DNA from: Paenibacillus sp. FSL W8-0426
GTDB lineage: Bacteria > Bacillota > Bacilli > Paenibacillales > Paenibacillaceae
DNA length: 64,000 nucleotides
Assembly (NCBI RefSeq): GCF_037969725.1
Contig: NZ_CP150203.1
Span: forward strand, 5,806,001-5,870,000
Direction: 5' to 3'
Every line of letters begins with the position of its first letter. Within the stretch, counting starts at the first letter, position 1. Shown here in pieces: positions 3,775-54,420 of the stretch. The notes beneath the pieces are model-generated. The model made no database searches. It was not told where the DNA came from and saw nothing but the letters and a program-made list of their open reading frames with translations. The translations under genes were made by a program, and so were the position numbers.

Positions 3775-3864
3775 GTTAACCTGCCCTTTAGTTGAACAAA
3801 AGCAGCCGATCACATTGATCAGCTGCTTTCTTGATATTATTGAGCTATTGTTTCCCTTTATCTT
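3775..3864. repeat. Dispersed intergenic repeat, full copy
   Basis: GTTAACCTGCCCTTTAGTTG, then the hairpin AGCAGCCGATCA / TGATCAGCTGCT, then TTGATATTATTGAGCTATTG and TTTCCCTTTA. It is nearly identical to the copy at 1461 apart from the right end. It lies directly after the stop of the leftward flavin reductase gene and probably acts as its terminator. Confidence 0.75.
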
Positions 3865-3868
3865 ATCC

Positions 3869-4414
3869 TCAGATGCGTTTGGTGTAGGCAATCAAATCCA
3901 ATATTGAGGCATCCATACGCTGCTGGATTTCGTGATCTAATTGGAATTGAATGTCTTGGTTAGGAACTTCAATACGTTCGATCTGACTGTCGATGGCAAA
4001 TACATTTTCCGCAAAAGATTTAGTTCCCATCGAGGCTAAAAGGGGCTTCAACGCATAATCGATGGAAAGCAAGTTCGAAAGGGTACCTCCTACAAAATAG
4101 GCAGCTGCGATTTTATCTTTAAAGGCTTTTTGCGGCAATAAATCAACGTAAGCTTTAAGGATGCCTGTATAGGTTGTTTTATACACCGGGCTTGCAATAA
4201 TGATTCCTGTCGCTTCTTCCACTTTGGCATGTGCGCTTAATATGGGCTTGCTGTTGAAATTGGCGTGCATCAAATCAGCCGGAGGCAAGGAGTACACATC
4301 GATGATCGCTACTTCGCAGCCTTGCTGCTCCAATTTCAGTTTGGCATATTGAACAACGCCGTTTACCCGAGATCTATTGTTGGGGCTTCCAGAAATGATC
4401 GCTATTTTACTCAT
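3869..4414 (-). CDS. ssuE: NADPH-dependent FMN reductase, SsuE type
   Basis: A 181-residue flavodoxin-fold protein. The N-terminal phosphate-binding loop is IISGSPNNRSR, followed by the family motif IIIASPVYKTTYTGILKAYV and the FVGGTLSNLLSIDYALKPLL segment. SsuE-type enzymes reduce free FMN with NADPH and hand it to a partner monooxygenase. Here the partner is the acyl-CoA-dehydrogenase-like gene just upstream, whose stop overlaps this start by 8 bases. Sulfonate use, as in the classic SsuE, is not shown by this context. Confidence 0.88.
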   Translation of the reverse strand: MSKIAIISGSPNNRSRVNGVVQYAKLKLEQQGCEVAIIDVYSLPPADLMHANFNSKPILSAHAKVEEATGIIIASPVYKTTYTGILKAYVDLLPQKAFKDKIAAAYFVGGTLSNLLSIDYALKPLLASMGTKSFAENVFAIDSQIERIEVPNQDIQFQLDHEIQQRMDASILDLIAYTKRI

Positions 4415-7055: not shown

Positions 7056-7334
7056 CACTTGCATCTCCTTTCATTCATCTACGTTCAGTATAGATCTGAA
7101 TTACGACAAATCACGTCGTAGTTAAGAAGCAAGTTTCTTTTCAATTTGGTTAGCAGGGTTACAAATTAATCCGTTGAATCAACGGAATCCTGAATGACGT
7201 CAGCTTCTTTCAGCATTCCGGTTCTTTTCAAATCAAAGTAATCTAAGTGAATATAAATAAATTATATACCTTTGTATAAGTTTACTTTACTTTTATAAAA
7301 ATTTAATTTATAATCGATCCATGAGGTGATGGTC

Positions 7335-7574
7335 GTGAAGAAAGATTTTGGTGATTCGATATCAAACAAGGTTTACGAATATCGTGTACTTGCCAGAATG
7401 TCTCAGCAAGAATTAGCAGAGAAAGTCGGGGTTTCCAAACAAACCATCTTCGTCATGGAAAAGGGAAATTATGTTCCAACTTTGCTGTTAGCTTTTCGAA
7501 TTGCCGATTTTTTTAATGTCGATGTAAACGATATTTTTACTTATGTGAAAGGAAATGATCAAAATGATAACTAA
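7335..7574 (+). CDS. XRE-family HTH regulator
   Basis: A 79-residue single-domain Cro/CI-like HTH (YRVLARMSQQELAEKVGVSK, QTIFVMEKGNYVPTLLLAFR, then FNVDVNDIF), the short type that usually represses its own operon. GTG at 7335 is preferred because AGGTG lies 6 bases upstream; GTG 7326 and ATG 7329 overlap that site. It overlaps the following small membrane-protein gene, a common pairing in Firmicutes in which the membrane partner is co-expressed. Confidence 0.85.
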   Translation: MKKDFGDSISNKVYEYRVLARMSQQELAEKVGVSKQTIFVMEKGNYVPTLLLAFRIADFFNVDVNDIFTYVKGNDQNDN

Positions 7575-7914
7575 GTTCTTCTCAGATGTCCATAATGCTA
7601 TTTTTTCCCCTTTAAAGTCCTGGGCTGAACAATCTACGGCAAATTGGAATATTCTCATTGGAGTTGGTTTTTTACTGGTTATGGGGAGCGCAATTTTAGT
7701 GTATGTATTGTATAAGAAAACCGGGCAAGACGACGAACGGACCAATAAAATCTTTTTGAAAAGCAGTTCCTACATGCTGTTGGCCATTATTCTATGTGAC
7801 ATCATTTTTCCTAAAGACGATATGTGGACCATCTTCTTCTTGTTCAAATATACGCTGGCATTTCTAGCCGGTGGAATTTACATGGCCGTCCAATATAAAA
7901 GGGATTTTTCATAA
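7564..7914 (+). CDS. Small membrane protein in an operon with the XRE regulator
   Basis: 116 residues from ATG 7564, 10 bases after AAAGGA and overlapping the regulator stop by 11 bases. Three hydrophobic segments are visible: NILIGVGFLLVMGSAILVYV, SYMLLAIILCDIIF and IFFLFKYTLAFLAGGIYMAV. The family is not recognised by name. The arrangement (short XRE regulator, then a three-helix membrane protein) is frequent in Bacilli and suggests co-regulation. Confidence 0.7.
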   Translation: MITKFFSDVHNAIFSPLKSWAEQSTANWNILIGVGFLLVMGSAILVYVLYKKTGQDDERTNKIFLKSSSYMLLAIILCDIIFPKDDMWTIFFLFKYTLAFLAGGIYMAVQYKRDFS

Positions 7915-8035
7915 GGAAAGATCGAGAAGCGAGATTGGGGTGCAGTAGGGCTCGTTATTACTGGTTGTACTCGTGTTTTACCTAATGGGCATGGATTTAC
8001 GAATGAATTTGCTCGATACAACGATGAATTGTTCC

Positions 8036-8116
8036 AAGTTTACACCAAAGCAGCTGATCACTATGATCGGCTGCTCTCTTGGTTATATTGAGTTTACGTT
8101 TCCCGTTAGTTCAATG
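8036..8116. repeat. Dispersed intergenic repeat, full copy
   Basis: The hairpin AGCAGCTGATCA / TGATCGGCTGCT lies at about 8047-8076, followed by TTGGTTATATTGAGTTTACG and the right end TTTCCCGTTAGTTCAATG. The stop codon of the leftward gene at 8111 is the TGA read in that right end. The left end is diverged. Confidence 0.7.
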
Positions 8117-8362
8117 TCGTGGCGCATAAATACGGTCAGTATCCGTATCAATTACAACATTTGGCCTGACATCTATTTCTTCTGAAGAAGGTAGACGCTC
8201 AAATTGAAACATCCTACAAAAAATATCTGCAAATTCACTTATGTTTGTACAACAGGTTTTGGCTATTTCATATTTCTTTCTTAATTCCGAAATTGAACAT
8301 GTTTTGCCGATGATAAGTACATTTTCAAAATAACCATCAATTTCAACGATCAAGTTCATCAC
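8111..8362 (-). CDS. Hypothetical small protein ending in the dispersed repeat
   Basis: 83 residues from GTG 8362 (or the ATG codon next to it), a few bases after GGCGG. No family is recognised; there is no signal peptide or membrane segment. It has an acidic middle (SSEEIDVRPNVVIDTDTD) and ends APRH. Its TGA stop lies inside the right end of the repeat copy at 8036. It could be a short remnant of a longer protein; the codon pattern looks coding but support is modest. Confidence 0.45.
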   Translation of the reverse strand: MMNLIVEIDGYFENVLIIGKTCSISELRKKYEIAKTCCTNISEFADIFCRMFQFERLPSSEEIDVRPNVVIDTDTDRIYAPRH

Positions 8363-8420
8363 CGCCAGTTGCTATCCAGCCTGTAAGCTCAAAAGTATTG
8401 ATACATAAAGATTAATAACG

Positions 8421-8460
8421 GCACCTCTTAGTTAAACTAAAGTTTCCCGATAGTTGAATC
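8421..8460. repeat. Dispersed repeat, short copy lacking the hairpin
   Basis: CCTCTTAGTTAAAC followed at once by AAAGTTTCCCGATAGTTGAA. Both ends of the repeat are present but the hairpin core is missing. The 3' end of the gene at 8437 reads into it and takes its last residues and stop codon from it. Confidence 0.5.
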
Positions 8461-8871
8461 TAGAATCTTTAGATTGCCACTTCTTCCATAACTCGACTCA
8501 ATTTCTTTAGACAATACTTTTGTTTGTTCCCCTAGATATTTCAAGGCGTTAGTATAAACTGTTGTATCGTCGCCTAGCCGAGCCATAACGGTTACACTTA
8601 CAACATTTCGAACATCAACATCATTACTTAAAGCCATTTGTTCAATAAACCCAAAAATTATAACAAGTAAATTTTCCTCACTTTTGGTTAATTTATAGTT
8701 AATTTGGAGTCGGTTGATTAAATATGGATTCAGTATATTGCCAAATGCAACGTGAGGCGGAATCTCCCCCTCTTCTTTCCATAGTTCATTTAGCTCTTTT
8801 ATGTATAGCGTATTTAATACCGGCAATAGCCTACGCATTTCGTGAACAACGTTTTTATAATTCAACGTCAT
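8437..8871 (-). CDS. Hypothetical helical protein, possibly an orphan immunity-type protein
   Basis: 144 residues with a strong ribosome site (AAAGGAGGAAAGAG then ATG). The product is cytoplasmic and mostly helical, with SEENLLVIIFGFIEQMALSN and a DVRNVVSVTVMARLGDD segment. The layout resembles small proteins of polymorphic-toxin immunity neighbourhoods, but I do not recognise a named family and no toxin is adjacent. The last six residues (STIGKL) are encoded within the repeat copy at 8421, so the original C-terminus may have been different. Confidence 0.6.
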   Translation of the reverse strand: MTLNYKNVVHEMRRLLPVLNTLYIKELNELWKEEGEIPPHVAFGNILNPYLINRLQINYKLTKSEENLLVIIFGFIEQMALSNDVDVRNVVSVTVMARLGDDTTVYTNALKYLGEQTKVLSKEIESSYGRSGNLKILDSTIGKL

Positions 8872-8922
8872 CTCTTTCCTCCTTTAGCAAGGTTAATCCC
8901 TCTTAACTCTTCGACTTATTTG

Positions 8923-8944
8923 TTAAACTAACCTGCCCATTCGT
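8923..8944. repeat. Dispersed repeat, left half cut by an IS110-family element
   Basis: AAACTAACCTGCCCATTCGT equals the left end of the repeat (compare 1461) and then stops abruptly. The missing right part resumes at 10526 with GTCGAACAAAAGCAGCC. Between them lies the transposase gene. Confidence 0.75.
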
Positions 8945-8949
8945 ATTAT

Positions 8950-9185
8950 GAGGTCAACCAGTTCTTTCTGGTTGATCCTTTTTTCATTAGCTTTGAGAAT
9001 GAAGGTAGCCGGGTCGAACGTACCTGCCCGTGGGACTTGATCCCGAGCGCTATATTGTTCACCCCTACTTGTCATGACCATGTTTGAGGCTGGTTGGGAC
9101 ATAGATCCCGTATAACAAGCGATGCTATGGAGCGACAAGAGGAAATCACAGGGGCTGCCGGTAAATCTAAATTAGGAAGGTGCAT
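8950..9185 (+). ncRNA. Candidate bridge RNA of the IS110-family element
   Basis: The region opens with a hairpin (GGTCAACCAG / CTGGTTGATCC, 8952-8979). Two loop units follow, each with the same inner hairpin: GGGACTTGATCCC at 9032-9044 and GGGACATAGATCCC at 9096-9109. Just before the first is ACCTGCCCGT (9022-9031), identical to the left half of the repeat into which the element is inserted. Just after it is TTGTTCA (9055-9061), the complement of TGAACAA in the right half. Before the second is GCTGGT (9089-9094), also found at the right end of the element (10517-10522). This is how target and donor loops of a bridge RNA are organised. RNA ends are guesses. Confidence 0.6.
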
Positions 9186-9189
9186 TTTA

Positions 9190-10398
9190 ATGAATCCAGT
9201 GATTGGCCTGGATATTTCTAAAGGTGAAAGCTATGGGCAAGCCTTTTTAAAGCGAGGCAAACCGTACAGAGGGACGTTTCAATTTGAACATACCCAAGAA
9301 GGTCTGACGAAGTTACTTCAAGCTATTCAGGATCTTGAACATGCTGCTGGACTACGTCCTACACTACTTCTTGAGGCGACTGGGCATTACCAGAGTCCTG
9401 TTGTTCAGTTCTTAGAGGAGCATCATTATTTGTACATTGTCATTAATCCGCTTATCTCAAATCGGCTTAGAAAGTCCAGCCTTCGTAAGGTAAAAACGGA
9501 TGCCGCTGATGCCTATTTGCTAGGAGAGTTGTACTATAAAGAAGAATTTGAGCCCTTTAAAAAAAGAGGTGTTCAACTGCTTAATTTGCGTTATCTAACA
9601 AGACAATATGAGTCTCTTTCAAAGATGTGTGTACAAAATAAACTGCAGTTTCAAGCTGTTCTTGATCAAGTTTTCCCTACGTACAAAAGTGTTTTTGGAG
9701 ATATCTATTCTCATATTTCACTTCGATTTCTAAGTGAATTTCCAACTTCATATTTGGTACTACAATCGGACGAAGGAATGCTTAAATCCAAATTCAAAGA
9801 GCTGCTTTCCTCAAGACGAGGACGATCAGAGAATTGGATCTGTGTGCGAGTTAAGCGTCTACTTCTTGCGGCAAAACAAAATCCTTTTCAGCAGAATATG
9901 TACTCTAGTCACTTGGTTAACCTGAGAGTTTTGATTTCGCTCATCCTTCAGTACCAAGAACATCTATCTCAATTGGAAAAGAACATAGATGCTCTCGCTG
10001 AAGAAATTCAAGAATATGATTTAATCCAGTCGATTCCCGGTATAGGTCCTAAAATTGCGGCAACAATTTTATCGGAAATTGGAGAAGTCGACCGATTTGA
10101 TCATCCAAAGAAACTAGTAGCCTTTGCGGGCATTGACCCGAGTGTATTCGCATCTGGAAAGTTTACGGCAACACGCAATCGAATTACCAAACGTGGTTCA
10201 CGACAACTTCGTTATGCTCTAGTTATGGCCGTCCAGTGTGGACTCATCCGCTCTCGAAATCTGCGACTTAAAGATTTTTATGATCGCAAAAGAGCCGAAG
10301 GAAAGCCACATAAAGTAGCTTTAATCGCATGCGCAAATAAGCTGGTTCATTGGCTTTATGTCATCCTGAAAAGTAAAAAAACTTTCCGCGCTGTCTAA
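9190..10398 (+). CDS. IS110-family transposase (DEDD recombinase)
   Basis: 402 residues from ATG 9190, which follows GGAAGG; in-frame codons back to 9094 lie in the presumed bridge RNA. The N-terminal RuvC-like DEDD domain shows GLDISKG, LLLEATGHY and KVKTDAADAYLLGEL. The C-terminal Tnp_20 domain shows IPGIGPKIAATILSEIG, AFAGIDP and the serine-containing ASGKFTATRNRITKRGSRQL. Family enzymes insert DNA at sites selected by a bridge RNA. The frame is intact, so the element may be active. Confidence 0.93.
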   Translation: MNPVIGLDISKGESYGQAFLKRGKPYRGTFQFEHTQEGLTKLLQAIQDLEHAAGLRPTLLLEATGHYQSPVVQFLEEHHYLYIVINPLISNRLRKSSLRKVKTDAADAYLLGELYYKEEFEPFKKRGVQLLNLRYLTRQYESLSKMCVQNKLQFQAVLDQVFPTYKSVFGDIYSHISLRFLSEFPTSYLVLQSDEGMLKSKFKELLSSRRGRSENWICVRVKRLLLAAKQNPFQQNMYSSHLVNLRVLISLILQYQEHLSQLEKNIDALAEEIQEYDLIQSIPGIGPKIAATILSEIGEVDRFDHPKKLVAFAGIDPSVFASGKFTATRNRITKRGSRQLRYALVMAVQCGLIRSRNLRLKDFYDRKRAEGKPHKVALIACANKLVHWLYVILKSKKTFRAV

Positions 10399-10410
10399 GC
10401 ACTCATATTG

Positions 10411-10447
10411 GTATAACCTTCCAAAACAAAGAAATTGGAGGGTTATT
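10411..10447 (+). terminator. Hairpin in the right end of the IS
   Basis: ATAACCTTCCAA and TTGGAGGGTTAT form a stem about 13 bases after the transposase stop, followed by TTGTC. It is a probable terminator for the transposase transcript. Confidence 0.5.
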
Positions 10448-10525
10448 TGTCATGCTTAATTTTACTATACCACATGACTTAAGGTTCATTTTGCTGGTAA
10501 TCTTGACAAGCTATTAGCTGGTATA

Positions 10526-10606
10526 GTCGAACAAAAGCAGCCGACCATGTTGAGATCGGCTACCTTAATTGTTTTTATCAAGCTATCGTTTTCCGTTAAT
10601 TTAATC
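10526..10606. repeat. Dispersed repeat, right part displaced by the IS
   Basis: GTCGAACAAAAGCAGCCGA, the hairpin with GATCGGCT, then ATCAAGCTATCG and TTTTCCGTTAATTTAATCAC. It completes the left half at 8923. The following leftward gene ends immediately at its right border. Confidence 0.75.
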
Positions 10607-11126
10607 ACTTGGCAGGCTTCTCAGCATCAATAATCAATGAGACAAAGCCTAATTTACCATTAATATTTCTATGATCAGAACGTTTGGAACGGAAAATTAA
10701 ACCTTTGTTTTTGTCCCACTCCTTGTAACGAAATTTACCTTCTTCATCACAATATTCGAGTAAACGCACATTGAATCCAGCAGCTTTAAACATGATAGTT
10801 AAAGTCTCATAATTGTATACAATCTTATGAGAAGCAGCTGGATGGTCAACTGGTCCTGGTCCTCCAATTTGCACTTCATTTTGATATTCTTCATTGGGAA
10901 AATAACCATCTGGAACCGCGCAACGCACATAACCACCGGGTTTTAAAAATTCAAAGCATATTTTTGCTGCTTTTACACCTTCGTCAAAATCTAAGTGTTC
11001 CCAAACATGTTCTGCTAAGATTGATGTTATCGTATTAGGTGTAAAACGATCTGCCCATTGATTTCTTTGTAGTAAACTCAACTCTGATTTCTGAGTTTGT
11101 ATCCACTCAGGATTGTTATTATACAT
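10605..11126 (-). CDS. SAM-dependent methyltransferase, probably 5'-frameshifted
   Basis: 173 residues from the first usable ATG (11126). It matches class I methyltransferases (ILAEHVWEHLDFDEGVKAAK, FEFLKPGGYVRCAVPDGYFP). The glycine-rich SAM motif, however, lies just upstream in the same frame without a start codon (IRVVIGAG before MYNNNPEW). A ribosome site (AAAGGAG, 11172-11178) and an ATG (11165-11167) sit 5' of it but in another frame, which stops after two codons. One missing base near 11160 would fuse them. The gene is therefore probably inactivated or uses a rare start. Its stop touches the repeat. Confidence 0.7.
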   Translation of the reverse strand: MYNNNPEWIQTQKSELSLLQRNQWADRFTPNTITSILAEHVWEHLDFDEGVKAAKICFEFLKPGGYVRCAVPDGYFPNEEYQNEVQIGGPGPVDHPAASHKIVYNYETLTIMFKAAGFNVRLLEYCDEEGKFRYKEWDKNKGLIFRSKRSDHRNINGKLGFVSLIIDAEKPAK

Positions 11127-11225
11127 TCCAGCGCCAATAACTACTCTGATATCCTCTTTTATACCATGCCACTCCTTTACATATTTATATAAAGTTTAGC
11201 ATACATATTCTGGATATAAATGGAT

Positions 11226-11357
11226 TTAAATCACTTCCGGATGGAACGATGTGATCTCTATCAAAAACTCCTTGTTCAAACAGAGTACTTCCGAGCGAAT
11301 CACGTCATACATCCCCTTAGAAAAGCTTTCAAGCTCCAACTGTGAAATTGCAGAATC
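11226..11357 (-). pseudogene. C-terminal gene remnant next to a repeat copy
   Basis: A 43-codon open frame without a start codon reads as protein (SKGMYDVIRSEVLCLNKEFL then ITSFHPEVI, stop TAA). It begins within a few bases of the border of the repeat copy at 11362. It looks like the tail of a lost gene; the family is not recognised. Confidence 0.35.
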
Positions 11358-11361
11358 ATTG

Positions 11362-11451
11362 TGCTAACCTCCCGTTAGACGAATGAAAGTAGCCAATCAC
11401 AATGATCGGCTTTTTATGTTATTGAGCTATCATTTCCCGTTAGCGTAACAA
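11362..11451. repeat. Dispersed intergenic repeat, diverged full copy
   Basis: TGCTAACCTCCCGTTAGACG, a weaker hairpin (AGCCAATCA / TGATCGGCT), then TTATTGAGCTATC and TTTCCCGTTAGCGTAACA. It belongs to the 'GCGTAAC' right-end variant also seen at 37690 and 32180. Confidence 0.65.
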
Positions 11452-11482
11452 CGAATTATACATCATTTATGCGGCACATAAG

Positions 11483-11914
11483 CTAAATTTTTATGATCCC
11501 ATTTAACCACCATTCTACGTACTTAGTTACTGAAGGCGCGACCCACATTCGGCTATCATTTTCATGATTCCATACAAACACATCATCTCTGCAAACTCTA
11601 TTTTGGGATACTGGAAAGGCAAACAAATCACCAATACCACTCTCTGCAAAGAAGACTAGATTTTCAAACGGCATATAATACTCTTCTAAAAAACCATCTC
11701 TATAATGCTTGTTTTCATTCATAATACGGTCCAATGGCCATATCAGCCCCAGATCATAACTCCCCTTCACCCCATTTGTCTCTAACATGATTTCTTTCAA
11801 TTCCTGTGGGAGAGTCACATTGAGCAAGCTTTCAACCTTGTCAATCTCGTCTTTTGTTGCAGGAATGCTGAACGTACACTCCTCTGAGATTCCCTGAAAG
11901 TAATTTTTCCACAT
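11483..11914 (-). CDS. SMI1/KNR4 (SUKH) family protein
   Basis: 143 residues from ATG 11914 (MWKNYFQGISEE), 11 bases after GGGAGG; an upstream in-frame GTG overlaps that site. The SUKH fold is shown by IPATKDEIDKVESLLNVTLP then QELKEIMLETNG near the start, IWPLDRIMNEN in the middle, and DDVFVWNHENDSRMWVAPSV near the end. In bacteria SUKH proteins are mainly immunity proteins against contact-dependent nuclease toxins. No toxin gene is adjacent, so this is an orphan immunity gene (inference). Confidence 0.85.
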   Translation of the reverse strand: MWKNYFQGISEECTFSIPATKDEIDKVESLLNVTLPQELKEIMLETNGVKGSYDLGLIWPLDRIMNENKHYRDGFLEEYYMPFENLVFFAESGIGDLFAFPVSQNRVCRDDVFVWNHENDSRMWVAPSVTKYVEWWLNGIIKI

Positions 11915-12700: not shown

Positions 12701-12761
12701 GCCATCATCAGCTCTTCTTCCCCTTGCTTGAGTGAATTCATATTTCCCCGTCAGTTCAATG
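12701..12761. repeat. Dispersed repeat, right part
   Basis: ATCATCAGCTCTTCTTCCC, then CTTGAGTGAATTCATA and TTTCCCCGTCAGTTCAATGG. The TGA stop of the leftward P-loop kinase gene is read from TTCAATG in this end. Confidence 0.55.
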
Positions 12762-13253
12762 GTTAAATAACTTAAGGATATCCATATTATCTGATACACG
12801 AATCATTTTTTCTTTATAATCGCAATGTTCAATGAATTGTGGAAGCTTCTCCAGATTGTATTTTCTATTCCACTCTAATAAGTTCCTGACTCCTTCAAGA
12901 GTCTCTCGCTTTTTACTTACTACAACTCCAGTAATGCGTTCTTCATATCGTTTCCATATTCTTGTTTCTTGGACAGACAAAGGGGGCATAAGAATAATAA
13001 TCTTGTCAGCAGCTGAAAAACTCGGTTCTACCCATGTCCTATATACGCCTTCCACGATCCAACAATCTCGTCTTACAATTCCCTCCAGTTTTTGATCCCG
13101 CTTTTCTGCTGAAGCTTTTACTCCATAAAGATCCGCTTTATTGTCCCAAAAAATATCGTCTAAATCGTAATGAGGAATATGGAGATGTTGACTTAATAAT
13201 TCTGCAATGTATGACTTACCACTTCCCGATCCACCAATAATATGTATTTTCAT
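12756..13253 (-). CDS. P-loop NTPase, adenylate-kinase-like (FlaR-type)
   Basis: 165 residues from ATG 13253, after AAGGAGG. Walker A is IIGGSGSGKSYIAELLS at the very N-terminus, followed by the substrate-side motif YDLDDIFWDNKA, WIVEGVYRTWVEPSFSAADK and the Walker B-like IIILMPP. Proteins of this group are annotated as adenylate kinase-like or DNA topology modulation protein FlaR; their phosphate acceptor is not established. Its stop codon lies in a repeat end, as for the genes at 8111 and 37395. Confidence 0.82.
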   Translation of the reverse strand: MKIHIIGGSGSGKSYIAELLSQHLHIPHYDLDDIFWDNKADLYGVKASAEKRDQKLEGIVRRDCWIVEGVYRTWVEPSFSAADKIIILMPPLSVQETRIWKRYEERITGVVVSKKRETLEGVRNLLEWNRKYNLEKLPQFIEHCDYKEKMIRVSDNMDILKLFNH

Positions 13254-13308
13254 GGTATTACCCTCCTTGAATTGTATTACCGTAATTATACACCCCCGCA
13301 TTTAGACG

Positions 13309-13352
13309 AACCTGTCCGTTAGTTAAACAAAAAAGCCGCAGCTAAGCGGCTT
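13309..13352. repeat. Dispersed repeat, left end with a substituted hairpin
   Basis: GAACCTGTCCGTTAGTTAAA then AAAGCCGC / GCGGCTT, a shorter hairpin than in full copies. Read leftward the hairpin is followed by TTTTTTGTT and would terminate the RCC1-protein gene. Confidence 0.6.
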
Positions 13353-13389: not shown

Positions 13390-14853
13390 TTAGGAATGAT
13401 TGTACTTCTGCGGGATACTTATATGAATCGTATTACTATCGGGTATCCACTTTACTTCAGCCCCTAATGTTTCAGAAATGAAGCGAATGGGCACCATCGT
13501 TACGTCATTGATGACCTTCGGCTTTAGCTCTTCTGGTAGAGACCTCCCGTTTAATCGAATCTCCTCTGACGGAGCATGAATTTCAATGATAATATCGTCT
13601 TTCTTAACAACACTAGTGAAGCTGCCTTGATTCCATTTAATTGTAGCCCCAATGTATTCAAACACTCCTCTCAGGGGTACATAGCTGATATTATTTATTA
13701 TGATCGGTGGAACAACCAAGCTGAGTGTCTCATCATTTAACTGCACGTTGATGGGCGCCTTAACAAACACAGGTACGGATGGCTTACCCAAAGAATCTAC
13801 CGTCCATTTCACAACAGTTCCGTTCTCAAGTAATGCATACTGCCCCCTGAATTGACTGTTTGCAATGTCCAATGCATTTTTAATTCCCGGTACTTGTACA
13901 GCCGTATATGCAGGCTTATCCCAGTAACTGTCCCACATCCATACCGTGCCGTCATCTTTAATTAGGCTAAAAGAAGATCCTGTACCGCCAGCCACCTGCC
14001 TGACACCATCCGCATTAACTACTTTGGTTGGATTCAGCAGTTTTCCAGGAGTAGGATACATTTTCGAGTTGTTCCACGTCCATAAAGTACCGTCTTCCGT
14101 TAGAGCAGCTGCTCTCTGTTCTAATGTTGCAATCTCTGTAGACTCCATCAACCCACTTATTATTGTCGGCTTCCTTAATTTGTCCGGGTTCGTTTCGTAT
14201 AACAATGTCCCCCAAACATGTACATTTCCTTTGCTATCAAGAATCATCGCTGATCCATAACCTGCGGCAATCGATATGCCTGAAGGAAGCCCTTCTACCT
14301 TAATAGGTTTAAATGAGGGAGTATTAACTCGATCTGTCCTTCCCCATTGCCATACTGTACCGTCTGCTTGTAACGCAAGGCTTTGATCACCTTCGGCAGC
14401 AATGGCTTTAATATCCCTCAAACTTTCTATCTGTACAGGATCTAGTACTGTTTCAGCTGATGAAACATCAATTCCCAGCTGCCCGTCCACATTTGATCCA
14501 GTTGCCCAAACCGTACCATCTTTTTTTAAGATAAGTGCATGTTTCGTGCCACTGGCGACATCGACTGCACCATCCATCTTCATTCGTACAGGGGACTCAG
14601 ACGGAACCGTGTAACCATTACCAATTAGACCACTATTACGCATACCACCCCATACCCAAACTGAGCCGTCTTTTTTAACTGCATAAACGGCCCATTCTCC
14701 TGCAGCAATCGCAGCAACATCAGATAAATGCTTTTGATTCTGACTAGAGTATTCAGTTGCGTGCAAGACCTTGGGCATGAAGAAAACAGTCATCGATATA
14801 AACAAAATTATTAATGTAGATTTTGCACATCTATGTATTCTCCTGTTAGACAC
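13390..14853 (-). CDS. Secreted RCC1-repeat protein with stalk domain
   Basis: 487 residues from GTG 14853, 5 bases after AAAGGGGAAG. Residues 1-32 form a signal peptide. Residues about 45-340 hold six or so RCC1/ATS1-type repeats (GSVWVWGGMRNSGLIGNGYT, GTVWATGSNVDGQLGIDV) that predict a beta-propeller. Residues 370-480 are a copper-amine-oxidase N-terminal-like stalk domain (ISYVPLRGVFEYIGATIKWN, VTMVPIRFISETLGAEVKW). It has the same C-terminal architecture as the LRR protein at 1639 with a different repeat module. A cell-surface role is likely. Confidence 0.87.
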   Translation of the reverse strand: MSNRRIHRCAKSTLIILFISMTVFFMPKVLHATEYSSQNQKHLSDVAAIAAGEWAVYAVKKDGSVWVWGGMRNSGLIGNGYTVPSESPVRMKMDGAVDVASGTKHALILKKDGTVWATGSNVDGQLGIDVSSAETVLDPVQIESLRDIKAIAAEGDQSLALQADGTVWQWGRTDRVNTPSFKPIKVEGLPSGISIAAGYGSAMILDSKGNVHVWGTLLYETNPDKLRKPTIISGLMESTEIATLEQRAAALTEDGTLWTWNNSKMYPTPGKLLNPTKVVNADGVRQVAGGTGSSFSLIKDDGTVWMWDSYWDKPAYTAVQVPGIKNALDIANSQFRGQYALLENGTVVKWTVDSLGKPSVPVFVKAPINVQLNDETLSLVVPPIIINNISYVPLRGVFEYIGATIKWNQGSFTSVVKKDDIIIEIHAPSEEIRLNGRSLPEELKPKVINDVTMVPIRFISETLGAEVKWIPDSNTIHISIPQKYNHS

Positions 14854-15054
14854 GACATCTTCCCCTTTCCGACAATCTGAATTAATGAGTATTTCTTACA
14901 AATAACTGATACACTCATTCTGATTGAGTTAACGTTTGAGGATAAAGGTTTGTTACAACAAAAATTAAAGAAATGTTTAGAAAACAGTTCTCTCGCTTGA
15001 TTCTAAATCAGAAATATCATTAGGCTCTAGTTCGCCATCATTCAATACAACTGG

Positions 15055-15447
15055 ATGTTAAAGGAAACATTTATCCAGCTTGTAGCGTTTATGTTACGTA
15101 AACAATATTACTTTAGGAGGAATCAAGATGAAGCGGATCGTTTCTCTATTGTTGATGTTAACACCATTAAAAATCAGGGAAAAGAATTGATTCTCAATTT
15201 CTCAGGAAAGGACATCGTTGTGGGAAAGAGCCAGGTTACTCTTCCGCAAGATTGGGTCCAATTGAAAAACGGGGTCTCAAGTATCGATGCATTTGTCCTA
15301 GCATATATTTTTGAAGTAGCTGCTGATGACTCGGATCAAGAAAGAGTAAATTTGGAAGAAAAACTTAAATTTTTGGATATCAAAGGAACGACAGGTCTTC
15401 CAGGATTCGATAAGTATATGTATGTGTTTGTTGAGTTTAATGATTAA
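15055..15447 (+). CDS. Hypothetical cytoplasmic protein
   Basis: 130 residues, no recognised family, no signal peptide. The C-terminal two-thirds look like a compact folded domain (KELILNFSGKDIVVGKSQVT, LDIKGTTGLPGFDKYMYVFV). The start is uncertain: no good ribosome site precedes ATG 15055. The strongest site (GGAGG at 15116-15120) sits before ATG 15128, which is in another frame and encodes only 20 codons (MKRIVSLLLMLTPLK...). Either that signal is chance or the 5' end carries a frameshift. Confidence 0.5.
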   Translation: MLKETFIQLVAFMLRKQYYFRRNQDEADRFSIVDVNTIKNQGKELILNFSGKDIVVGKSQVTLPQDWVQLKNGVSSIDAFVLAYIFEVAADDSDQERVNLEEKLKFLDIKGTTGLPGFDKYMYVFVEFND

Positions 15448-15544
15448 TTACAATCGTTTATTTATTCTTACGAGCCTTTTTCGGTTATCACCGGGAGAGG
15501 TTTCTTTTTGTCTTAGTCCCTGGACACCCATCTATAGGATACTC

Positions 15545-15585
15545 GCACGTCAGTTGAATAAAAGCAGCCGCTTGGACAATGCTGC
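15545..15585. repeat. Dispersed repeat, left end fragment
   Basis: GCACGTCAGTTGAATAAAAG then CAGCCGCTTGG. Matches the left border and the start of the hairpin, then diverges. Confidence 0.4.
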
Positions 15586-15626
15586 GTTTGCGACTGATGT
15601 ATGGTATGGCCATTAAAACATCATGA

Positions 15627-15679
15627 GTAACCCCCGTCGCAGGATACCGGCTAGCGGATCGAATGCAGAACGGGGGTTA
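15627..15679 (-). terminator. Hairpin downstream of the GH30 xylanase gene
   Basis: TAACCCCCGT and ACGGGGGTTA form a strong stem about 40 bases after the xylanase stop. There is no clear T-run, so its role may be RNA stabilisation as much as termination. Confidence 0.5.
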
Positions 15680-32157: not shown

Positions 32158-32200
32158 CGACCAGCCCGCGTCTGGTTATAGGTGTTCCGTTAGCGCAACG
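32158..32200. repeat. Dispersed repeat, right end with a different hairpin
   Basis: ACCAG CCCGCGT CTGGT forms a short stem, followed by GTGTTCCGTTAGCGCAAC, which matches the 'GCGTAAC' variant of the right end. It separates two leftward genes. Confidence 0.45.
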
Positions 32201-32210
32201 CTAAATGGGA

Positions 32211-32670: not shown

Positions 32671-32766
32671 ATCCTGCCCGTTAACGTTAAATGAACAAAG
32701 CAGCCGATCACAATGATCGGCTGCTACTTGCTCTTACTGTGCTATTTTTCCCGTTAGCATAATGAC
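32671..32766. repeat. Dispersed intergenic repeat, full copy
   Basis: GATCCTGCCCGTTAACGTT, then GAACAAAGCAGCCGATCA / TGATCGGCTGCT, then TACTGTGCTATT and TTTCCCGTTAGCATAATGAC. It has the complete structure in a region 17 kb from the previous cluster of copies. Confidence 0.8.
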
Positions 32767-32833
32767 CTTGCTGATTAAACGATTGGCCATTCTAGCATTT
32801 TGCTACGTTTTATTTGCTAATCATGCACTTTTA

Positions 32834-37689: not shown

Positions 37690-37729
37690 TATTGGATTTA
37701 TTGAATTATTGTTTCCCGTTAGCGTAACA
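37690..37729. repeat. Dispersed repeat, right part
   Basis: TATTGGATTTATTGAATTATTG then TTTCCCGTTAGCGTAACA; the hairpin core and left end are absent. A separate terminator hairpin follows at 37729. Confidence 0.6.
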
Positions 37730-37759
37730 AAATCCCACTCCATGGTCGAGTGGGATTTT
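37729..37759 (-). terminator. Intrinsic terminator after the UMP kinase paralogue
   Basis: AAAATCCCACTC and GAGTGGGATTTT form a 12-bp stem with a 7-base loop, about 70 bases after the stop of the leftward kinase gene. Confidence 0.7.
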
Positions 37760-52988: not shown

Positions 52989-53492
52989 TTATTTTTCTCC
53001 TTTCTCGTAACGAGATAATTTTTGGCGAAGCTCTTCGACTTCTTTTTGCAATGCTTTTTTCTCGATATCCTTCATCATGGAATCCAGTTCGCTTTCCTGC
53101 TGGTTTCCTGCGTAATTGCCGTCATAACGCGTTCCCTGATTAGGTCTGTTGTTATACCCTGGACCCGGTCCGAAACCGCCGGAACCCTGGTTGAACGGGC
53201 CTTGGTTGAATGGACCTTGGTTGAACGGCCCTCTTGGCGGATGTTGATCGTGACCCTGGAAACCTCGGCCGGGACCTGGCCCGGGGCCATATGGATCATA
53301 TGGAGGGTAAGGTTCCTTCGGCACAACCAGTGCGGCGATGAAGTAGATCAGTAACGACGTGCCGCCCGTAACGAAGATGCTGATGACAAAGATGATACGC
53401 AGCAGCGTAGAATCCATGCCGATCGATTCGGAGATGCCGCCGATTAATCCGGTAAGCATCCGGTCACGCGTTGAGCGATATAGTTTGCTCAT
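52989..53492 (-). CDS. PspC-domain membrane protein with Gly/Pro/Asn-rich linker and coiled coil
   Basis: 167 residues. Residues 1-60 form a PspC domain ([20 protein letters not shown], then a membrane helix [20 protein letters not shown]). A long low-complexity linker (about 63-125) includes three tandem GPFNQ units. The C-terminal 35 residues are a coiled coil ([20 protein letters not shown]). PspC anchors PspA-type stress responses at the membrane. The stop is only one base before the next gene's start region, indicating coupled translation. Confidence 0.88.
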
Positions 53493-53511
53493 GTCGTGTT
53501 ACTCCTTTCTG

Positions 53512-53748
53512 TCATTTGTATCCTCTTCCGAAATCAGGGCCGTATCCGTACGACTCACCGGGGTAAGTTTCCTTCGGTACCAACAGTGAAGCGATGAAAT
53601 AGATCAGCAGCGACGTGCCGCCCGTGGCAAAAATACTGATGAAAAAGATGATGCGCAGCAGCGCGGAACTCACGCCGAGGTTTTCGGAAATGCCGCCGAT
53701 TAGGCCTGTCAGCCTACGATTACGCGTCGACCGAAATAATCTGTTCAT
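53512..53748 (-). CDS. PspC-domain membrane protein (short copy)
   Basis: 78 residues. It has nearly the same PspC domain as the longer gene downstream ([40 protein letters not shown]) but stops after a short GYGPDFGRGY tail. It lacks the linker and coiled coil. Tandem duplication of PspC is apparent from residue identity and equal ribosome sites (AGAAAGGAGTAAC). Confidence 0.9.
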   Translation of the reverse strand: MNRLFRSTRNRRLTGLIGGISENLGVSSALLRIIFFISIFATGGTSLLIYFIASLLVPKETYPGESYGYGPDFGRGYK

Positions 53749-53754
53749 GCTTGG

Positions 53755-54420
53755 TTACTCCTTTCTGTCGGTATTCAGCTTCTGTCTCAGGCGCTCCAGC
53801 TCTTTATCGAGCTGGGAGGATGAGATTCCGCTTGAGGTGTCTCCCTGCCCCATTCTTCGCAAATCCCGAAGACTCTGGGTTTCATATTCAAGATCCGATA
53901 CTTGATCATCCAAACGATTGAACATGCGAGGAACATTTTGGCCGTTATACTGGCTGCGCTGATTCATCCGCTGCTGCAGTTGAATCGTCTGCATCCGGGC
54001 GTAATAATATTGGCGCTTGCTGTATACGGTTTGATATTCAACCTTCAGTTGGTTGATTTGCTCATCCAGTTCCTGCAAAGCGGAGTTGCTTTGTTGGTAC
54101 AGTTCGTTGTACTGCTCCATCTTTTCTTCGTAGATGATTTTTTCCTGCAAGGCTAGCTTGGCAAGGTGCTCTTCCCCGGCTTTCAAAGCCATCGAAGCTT
54201 GCTCCTCCCGTTTGTGTACCATGGCGGCGGCCTGATCGGCCTGTTGTTTCATTTGTCTTGTGTGTGAAGCATACTGGTGACGGAGCTTCTCGGCTTCGCC
54301 AATATCCTGGCGGGTCGAGACCAGAAACTGGTCGATCAATTTCACTGGATCCTGACTTTGCTCCAAATGCTCATTCAATGTTGCTACGGTAATGTCCCGC
54401 ATTCGACGAAATACACTCAT
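53755..54420 (-). CDS. pspA: PspA/IM30-family protein (copy 1)
   Basis: 221 residues. Same architecture as the gene at 52274: MSVFRRMRDITVATLNEHLE, SQDPVKLIDQFLVSTRQDIG and a long coiled coil (LALQEKIIYEEKMEQYNELY). Sequence identity between the two is modest, so the duplication is old or one copy was acquired separately. It lies directly after the LiaI-like gene and six bases before the short PspC gene. Confidence 0.92.
   Translation of the reverse strand: MSVFRRMRDITVATLNEHLEQSQDPVKLIDQFLVSTRQDIGEAEKLRHQYASHTRQMKQQADQAAAMVHKREEQASMALKAGEEHLAKLALQEKIIYEEKMEQYNELYQQSNSALQELDEQINQLKVEYQTVYSKRQYYYARMQTIQLQQRMNQRSQYNGQNVPRMFNRLDDQVSDLEYETQSLRDLRRMGQGDTSSGISSSQLDKELERLRQKLNTDRKE

Follow-up and report, generated by a model that had tools for sequence, protein, structure and literature searches.

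An IS110-family element of Paenibacillus with a predicted bridge RNA in its left end and guide segments that covary with its insertion sites

The element and its empty sites

The window analysed here is a stretch of 64,000 nucleotides from Paenibacillus sp. FSL W8-0426 (contig NZ_CP150203.1, positions 5,806,001 to 5,870,000), and it contains an IS110-family element at positions 8942 to 10524, with a recombinase gene (9190 to 10398) preceded by a left end in which a bridge RNA is predicted; the element, its parts, and the repeat copies discussed below are on the plus strand. The genome of the window is referred to as G000, and G195 is a genome listed as the same species from which the element is absent. 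The empty site of the window copy in G195 reads AACCTGCCCG-TT-AGTCGAACAA (CCTGCCCG-TT-AGTCGAACAA in a shorter extract), that of a second G000 copy reads CCTGTCCG-TT-AGCTTGTTAG, and the insertion point of both copies is CCG-TT-AG. These junctions set the bounds of the element, giving 1583 bp with one core dinucleotide included. The left and right arms overlap at a single core T in the second copy and, judged by eye, in the window copy; left junctions thus retain the target TT and right junctions have AT, and a target duplication is not needed to explain insertion.

Read from left to right, the left target CCTGCCCA with the left-junction core TT occupies 8932 to 8941, the G195 empty site serving as reference. 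The element then begins with the right donor CGTATTATG (8942 to 8950), which is conserved among relatives and contains a -10-like TATTAT (8944 to 8949), and it ends with the left donor GCTGGT (10517 to 10522) and the right-junction core AT (10523 to 10524), assigned as the donor core by the empty-site comparison and by the core counts given below. The right half of the target repeat, consisting of AGTCGAACAA, a hairpin, and a second arm, follows at 10525 to 10607, as judged from the empty site and from comparison of repeats. A GT core inside CCCGT had been considered, prompted by the left target and left donor guides both ending in GT before their hairpins; it was rejected because both empty sites are too short by one base to allow GT, and [A/T]T is also favoured by the conserved CGTATTAT end.

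The second G000 copy is 99.87% identical across 1583 bp (one mismatch and one gap) and lies at a different target; neither copy was found in G195. G000 also holds three left-end relics and one right-end relic. Gene-less left ends occur at L005 (1501-1645), L006 (1501-1644), and L003 (1501-1677), and the similarity of the first two stops just past the target loop.

The recombinase

The 402 amino acid product contains the DEDD_Tnp_IS110 and Transposase_20 domains and matches NF033542, "IS110 family RNA-guided transposase", at 247 bits against a cut-off of 140. Its closest named relatives are from Paenibacillus, and the nearest solved structure by sequence is that of IS621 (8wt6). Residues D8, E62, D104, D107, and S322 are considered the counterparts of the active-site residues of IS621, reported as D11, E60, D102, D105, and S241 (PMC11208158); the last four of our residues fall within the alignment to IS621, whereas D8 was assigned by motif only. 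The open reading frame (ORF) could also start further upstream, at a TTG at 9094 that lies within the predicted bridge RNA region. The protein is not placed among TIGR-Tas systems, its match to the Tas protein (46.8 bits) being below the cut-off of 100.

Structure of the predicted bridge RNA

An alignment of 28 left ends of diverse relatives was folded. The predicted RNA opens with a 5' stem-loop (8952 to 8977; helix 1, with double changes in three of eight pairs), and an outer stem (helix 2) is formed by 9008 to 9012 and 9158 to 9162. Within it, the target loop is closed by helix 3, in which GAACG (9016 to 9020) pairs with TGTTC (9056 to 9060), and contains the hairpin GGGACTTGATCCC (9032 to 9044; helix 4); the donor loop contains the hairpin GGGACATAGATCCC (9096 to 9109; helix 7). 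The left-end fold is better than shuffled sequence (z -2.5), with 2 of 200 shuffles equally good. Overall, the 35 pairs are formed in 98.3% of cells of the alignment, and double-sided changes occur at 12 pairs against 5.9 in shuffles, none of 500 shuffles reaching as high. Slid registers of the helices reduce paired cells to 29-42%, a comparison biased in favour of the structure because it was derived from the same alignment. The closing helix is paired in 100% of cases and shows double changes in three of five pairs, one of which switches from AU to GC in 6 of the 28 sequences. L026 has a left end that lacks the TGTTCAC stretch after the right guide, including the closing-stem partner. No bridge RNA family was matched in Rfam over 8000 to 11500; two sub-threshold matches were regarded as chance.

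A sequence-only reading of this region had proposed that an IS110 element encodes a bridge RNA here, in its left end. The strings it quoted are all present at the positions given here, as is its 5' hairpin, and the proposal itself is upheld by the family assignment, the structure, the covariation, and the empty sites.

Target guides and rival explanations of the left end

The left target guide ACCTGCCCGT occupies 9022 to 9031, and its bases 9023 to 9030 covary with the left flank: on average 5.73 of eight positions match, against 3.39 when flanks are permuted, and none of 20,000 permutations was as high (35 distinct guides). The right target guide GAGCGCTATAT occupies 9045 to 9055, where 9047 to 9053 correspond to the right flank and core, the core itself to 9052 to 9053, and the handshake bases are 9054 to 9055. 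Compared with the core and right flank, it matches at 5.79 of eight positions against 3.64 permuted (0/20,000; 28 guide groups), and of eight registers tried the expected one alone stands out, with a z of 10.0, the others lying between -0.8 and 1.7.

Both guides are altered together with their target in element L041, the recombinase of which is 92% identical to that of the window in the best protein segment. Its left guide and left flank both read CTGCCGG where the guide of the window copy reads CTGCCCG, and its right guide GAGTGCAATCA contains TGCAAT, the complement of ATTGCA in its right flank, at the place where the window guide has CTATA. L041 is thus a natural joint change of both guides with the target. 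The sequence-only reading had called the recombinase programmable, and by analogy with IS621 and from the L041 change this would seem to be the case.

That one guide copies the top strand and the other complements it was correctly anticipated, as was the left guide; the complementing segment, however, is 9045 to 9055 and not, as had been supposed, TTGTTCA (9055 to 9061). The attraction of TTGTTCA is its literal seven-nucleotide complementarity to TGAACAA of the repeat consensus, of which six of seven positions hold at the element's own right junction; the actual flanks of the window copy, ACCTGCCCAT and CGAACAA, each differ by one mismatch from the repeat halves to which the guides had been compared. 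TTGTTCA nevertheless shows no covariation with the right flank (2.71 of seven matches against 2.80 permuted, with 16,786 of 20,000 permutations as high), and neither do the three neighbouring registers. TGTTC or TGTCC is found at this position in 44 of 50 distinct target loops irrespective of the target, L048 retains TGTTC despite the unrelated right flank TTCCTCACC, and the segment pairs inside the RNA with GAACG. A role for it as the right target guide is therefore extremely improbable. A bipartite right target guide, GUUCA...CUA, was likewise abandoned on the covariation matrix.

The same covariation bears on whether the left end might be a structured mRNA leader controlling the transposase, its similarity to the target being the relic of a past insertion. 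The region does lie directly upstream of the gene, and a reading frame can start within it at the TTG already mentioned; however, two guide segments that covary with opposite strands of the flanks (35 and 28 guide groups), and the joint change in L041, make a leader very unlikely. Somewhat less remote, though still improbable, is that the window copy is dead and its guides no longer function, for its own site mismatches both guides and relics of both ends persist in the genome. Set against this are an open frame with the expected active-site residues and the 99.87% identical copy at another target, with neither copy present in the same-species genome. An intact IS110-group element with an IS621-like bridge RNA encoded in its left end accounts for the structure, the covariation of guides with flanks, the exact empty sites, and the two near-identical copies, all of which the analysis shows; we put the probability of this explanation at about 0.93.

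Some left guides of other relatives deserve mention. Those of L104, L106, L108, and L129 (ATCGTATCC, TTCGTGTCC, TTCGTTTCC) are closer to the second arm of the repeat (CGTTTCCC) than to the first. In a more distant clade (L115, L118-L123, and L130-L135) the left guides are mostly T-rich and the right guides mostly end in AAAAAC; a hairpin abuts a T run in 6 of 13 folded left flanks, and L122 has a strong hairpin one nucleotide away. The flanks of this clade look as if intrinsic terminators were the target, and none such was seen in 11 elements of the window clade.

Core dinucleotide and handshake bases

Both junctions were available for 80 elements, and the figures on core agreement count elements, not independent changes. 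The second base of the core is T at all 80 left junctions and at 77 right junctions, and the first is A or T at 77 left and 79 right junctions. The core carried by the right guide agrees with that of the right junction in 76 of the 80 elements and with that of the left junction in 41. In the 42 elements where the two junction cores differ, the right guide sides with the right core in 38, with the left in three, and with neither in one. In 78 of 80 elements the guide base that follows is complementary to the final base of the donor, the exceptions being L041 and L128; nine of the 78 have a donor ending in GA, and their guide base is changed accordingly. The two handshake bases both fit in 52 of the 80, whereas the window copy has a fit at the first alone. 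In L019 the right end has an additional CGTAT, after the donor core and before the right flank.

In IS621, once the strands have been exchanged, the incoming donor core is described as pairing with the right target guide, and positions 81-82 as pairing with the donor (PMC11208158). It is conceivable, although we lean against it, that here the whole right target guide, core and handshake bases included, is matched to the product of strand exchange (donor end followed by donor core and right target) rather than to the intact target. Such a guide would fit the counts above, the core it carries being mostly the right-hand, donor core where the junction cores differ. This agreement is weakened as evidence because the guide and the right end belong to one element, so that part of it is linkage, and what the target core was can be read only at the two copies that have an empty site. 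Were the guide indeed written for the product, a mismatch before exchange that becomes a match afterwards would drive the reaction forward.

Donor loop, junction promoter, and proposed mechanism

The left donor guide GGCTGGTT (9088 to 9095) matches the end of the element at 10517 to 10522; GCTGGT itself is present at 9089 to 9094 and again at that end. GCTGG or GCCGG is present at nearly all right ends of relatives inspected, but none was nearby in L029 and L090. Because the element ends and the donor loop are almost invariant across relatives, and GCTGGT hardly varies, the donor pairing is inferred from position; the proposal that GCTGGT is a donor guide is thus supported by position and near-universal presence at right ends, and not by covariation. 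The right donor guide ATAACAAGCGA (9112 to 9122) would pair with the left end in two separate stretches, at TCG and at TTAT, with an unpaired middle between them; a discontiguous layout of this guide is described for IS621 (PMC11208158).

A -35-like TTGACA lies in the right end at 10503 to 10508, and in joined ends it would stand 18 nucleotides from TATTAT, building a candidate TTGACA-18-TATTAT promoter. TTGAC[AT] was found in the right end of 81 of 90 elements, with a spacing to TATTAT of 18 in 56 and of 17 in 25; the spacing is the informative part, the motifs used having demanded TTGAC close to the end and nearly fixed TATTAT. While the element is integrated, TTGTTA is the closest match to a -35 element upstream. 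A circle promoter is known for IS621 (PMC11208158).

We propose that excision would join the ends into a circle, setting TTGACA ahead of TATTAT, and that the junction promoter would drive the bridge RNA and probably the gene too. In the target loop, 9023 to 9030, copying the left target, would pair with the bottom strand, and 9047 to 9053, complementing the core and right target, with the top strand. Of the donor-loop guides, GGCTGGTT would read the element's right end and ATAACAAGCGA its left end. The recombinase would then swap strands at the mostly [A/T]T core within one arm of the clustered palindromic repeat. Transcription, the circle, and base pairing as the mechanism are all predicted steps here, and the chemistry is presumed by analogy with IS621.

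The target repeat

The element targets one of the two arms of a double repeat, in which a variable hairpin separates the arms; by eye, each arm is imperfectly palindromic, its halves 6-8 nucleotides apart. With up to two mismatches, the left-arm pattern has seven matches in G000 at 3.53, 5.19, and 5.80-5.84 Mb; with up to three, the right-arm pattern has nine, at 3.53-3.54, 5.24, and 5.81-5.84 Mb. At three mismatches the left-arm pattern occurs at 24 places, but the reversed control gives six, so weak matches are partly chance. The repeat had been called genome-wide, which this evidence does not support: the closest copies cluster in three chromosome regions, at modest copy number, although more degenerate ones may be present elsewhere.

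Copies in the window lie at 1464-1554, 3777-3869, 8046-8117, 11364-11451, 12747-12762, 13308-13343, 15539-15574, 32186-32201, 32696-32778, and 37698-37730. By eye, those starting at about 1464, 3777, 8046, 10525, 11364, 12747, 13308, 15539, 32186, and 37698 are within 150 nucleotides of the 3' end of a minus-strand ORF, whereas copies or weaker matches at 2898, 32696, 37386, and 38838 are not. We take the repeat to resemble integron attC sites in layout, and the geometry fits by eye. The integron integrase model TIGR02249 was above cut-off in none of 20 genomes, that of the window included; an identification as attC was dropped, and the likeness stands as an observation of layout.

Eight of the strain differences found were inspected by eye for cassette-like gain or loss at the repeats; four of them had the repeat or the left-guide motif at a boundary and four did not; one of the former is another IS110-family insertion. 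At L178 (about 7090-7700), G195 has a minus-strand ORF of 146 amino acids (7167-7607) flanked by two copies of the repeat; G000 lacks this ORF and has one repeat copy there. At L171 (about 13927-15670; G000:C1:5178927-5180670), a different IS110-family element with both Pfam domains has inserted into another copy of the target repeat, within its second arm (GTTTCCCGTTAG), and is absent at that site from G195. A further 3.2 kb not in G195 (G000:C1:5184689-5187890; L171/L172) has a CCTGCCC motif exactly at its start, and its end is near the relic L006. Elsewhere in the window, 53305-53769 holds a direct repeat of 209 nucleotides, 79% identical, at a spacing of 256.

Comparison with known systems

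Much of this is shared with IS621 of E. coli in the published accounts (PMC11208160, PMC11208158): a DEDD domain with a serine of the Tnp domain, a two-loop bridge RNA in the left end, a left target guide that copies and a right one that complements the top strand, a discontiguous right donor guide, a junction promoter, insertion into palindromic repeats, and handshake bases after the right target guide. The two differ in protein length (402 amino acids here, 326 in IS621), in target (a clustered repeat here, REP for IS621), and in the core, which is mostly [A/T]T here and CT in IS621, although AT and TT cores are reported to be tolerated there as well (PMC11208158). Unlike in IS621, left and right cores frequently differ.

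With the IS110-type seekRNA of ISEc21 (PMC11187229), our element shares an upstream non-coding region, and its order of target-strand guides is that described there for the IS110 family, the reverse of IS1111; the ISEc21 seekRNA target differs from that found here, and the main text of that paper makes no mention of Paenibacillus. In the IS1111 group the RNA is described as lying in the right end (PMC11208160), whereas here the guide loops are upstream of the gene, at 9016 to 9122, in the left end. As for the recombinase and its type of target, these also recall another group. The IS1111-attC elements are DEDD elements aimed at palindromic recombination-like repeats in arrays; ours likewise targets palindromic repeats, but without an integron integrase above cut-off in any of the 20 genomes. 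No account of the present lineage was recognised from titles and abstract openings of the papers listed on IS110 elements and bridge RNAs, a survey that covered few subscription journals.

The system is of a known kind, and what is added to it is the corrected right guide and the core pattern. The result is a Gram-positive bridge-recombinase lineage with defined guides, ends, and core, and with two verified empty sites. IS621 has CT in both target and donor, so a guide written for the target is hard to separate there from one written for the product; the elements described here can separate the two, and the lineage offers a natural set in which the junction cores often differ.
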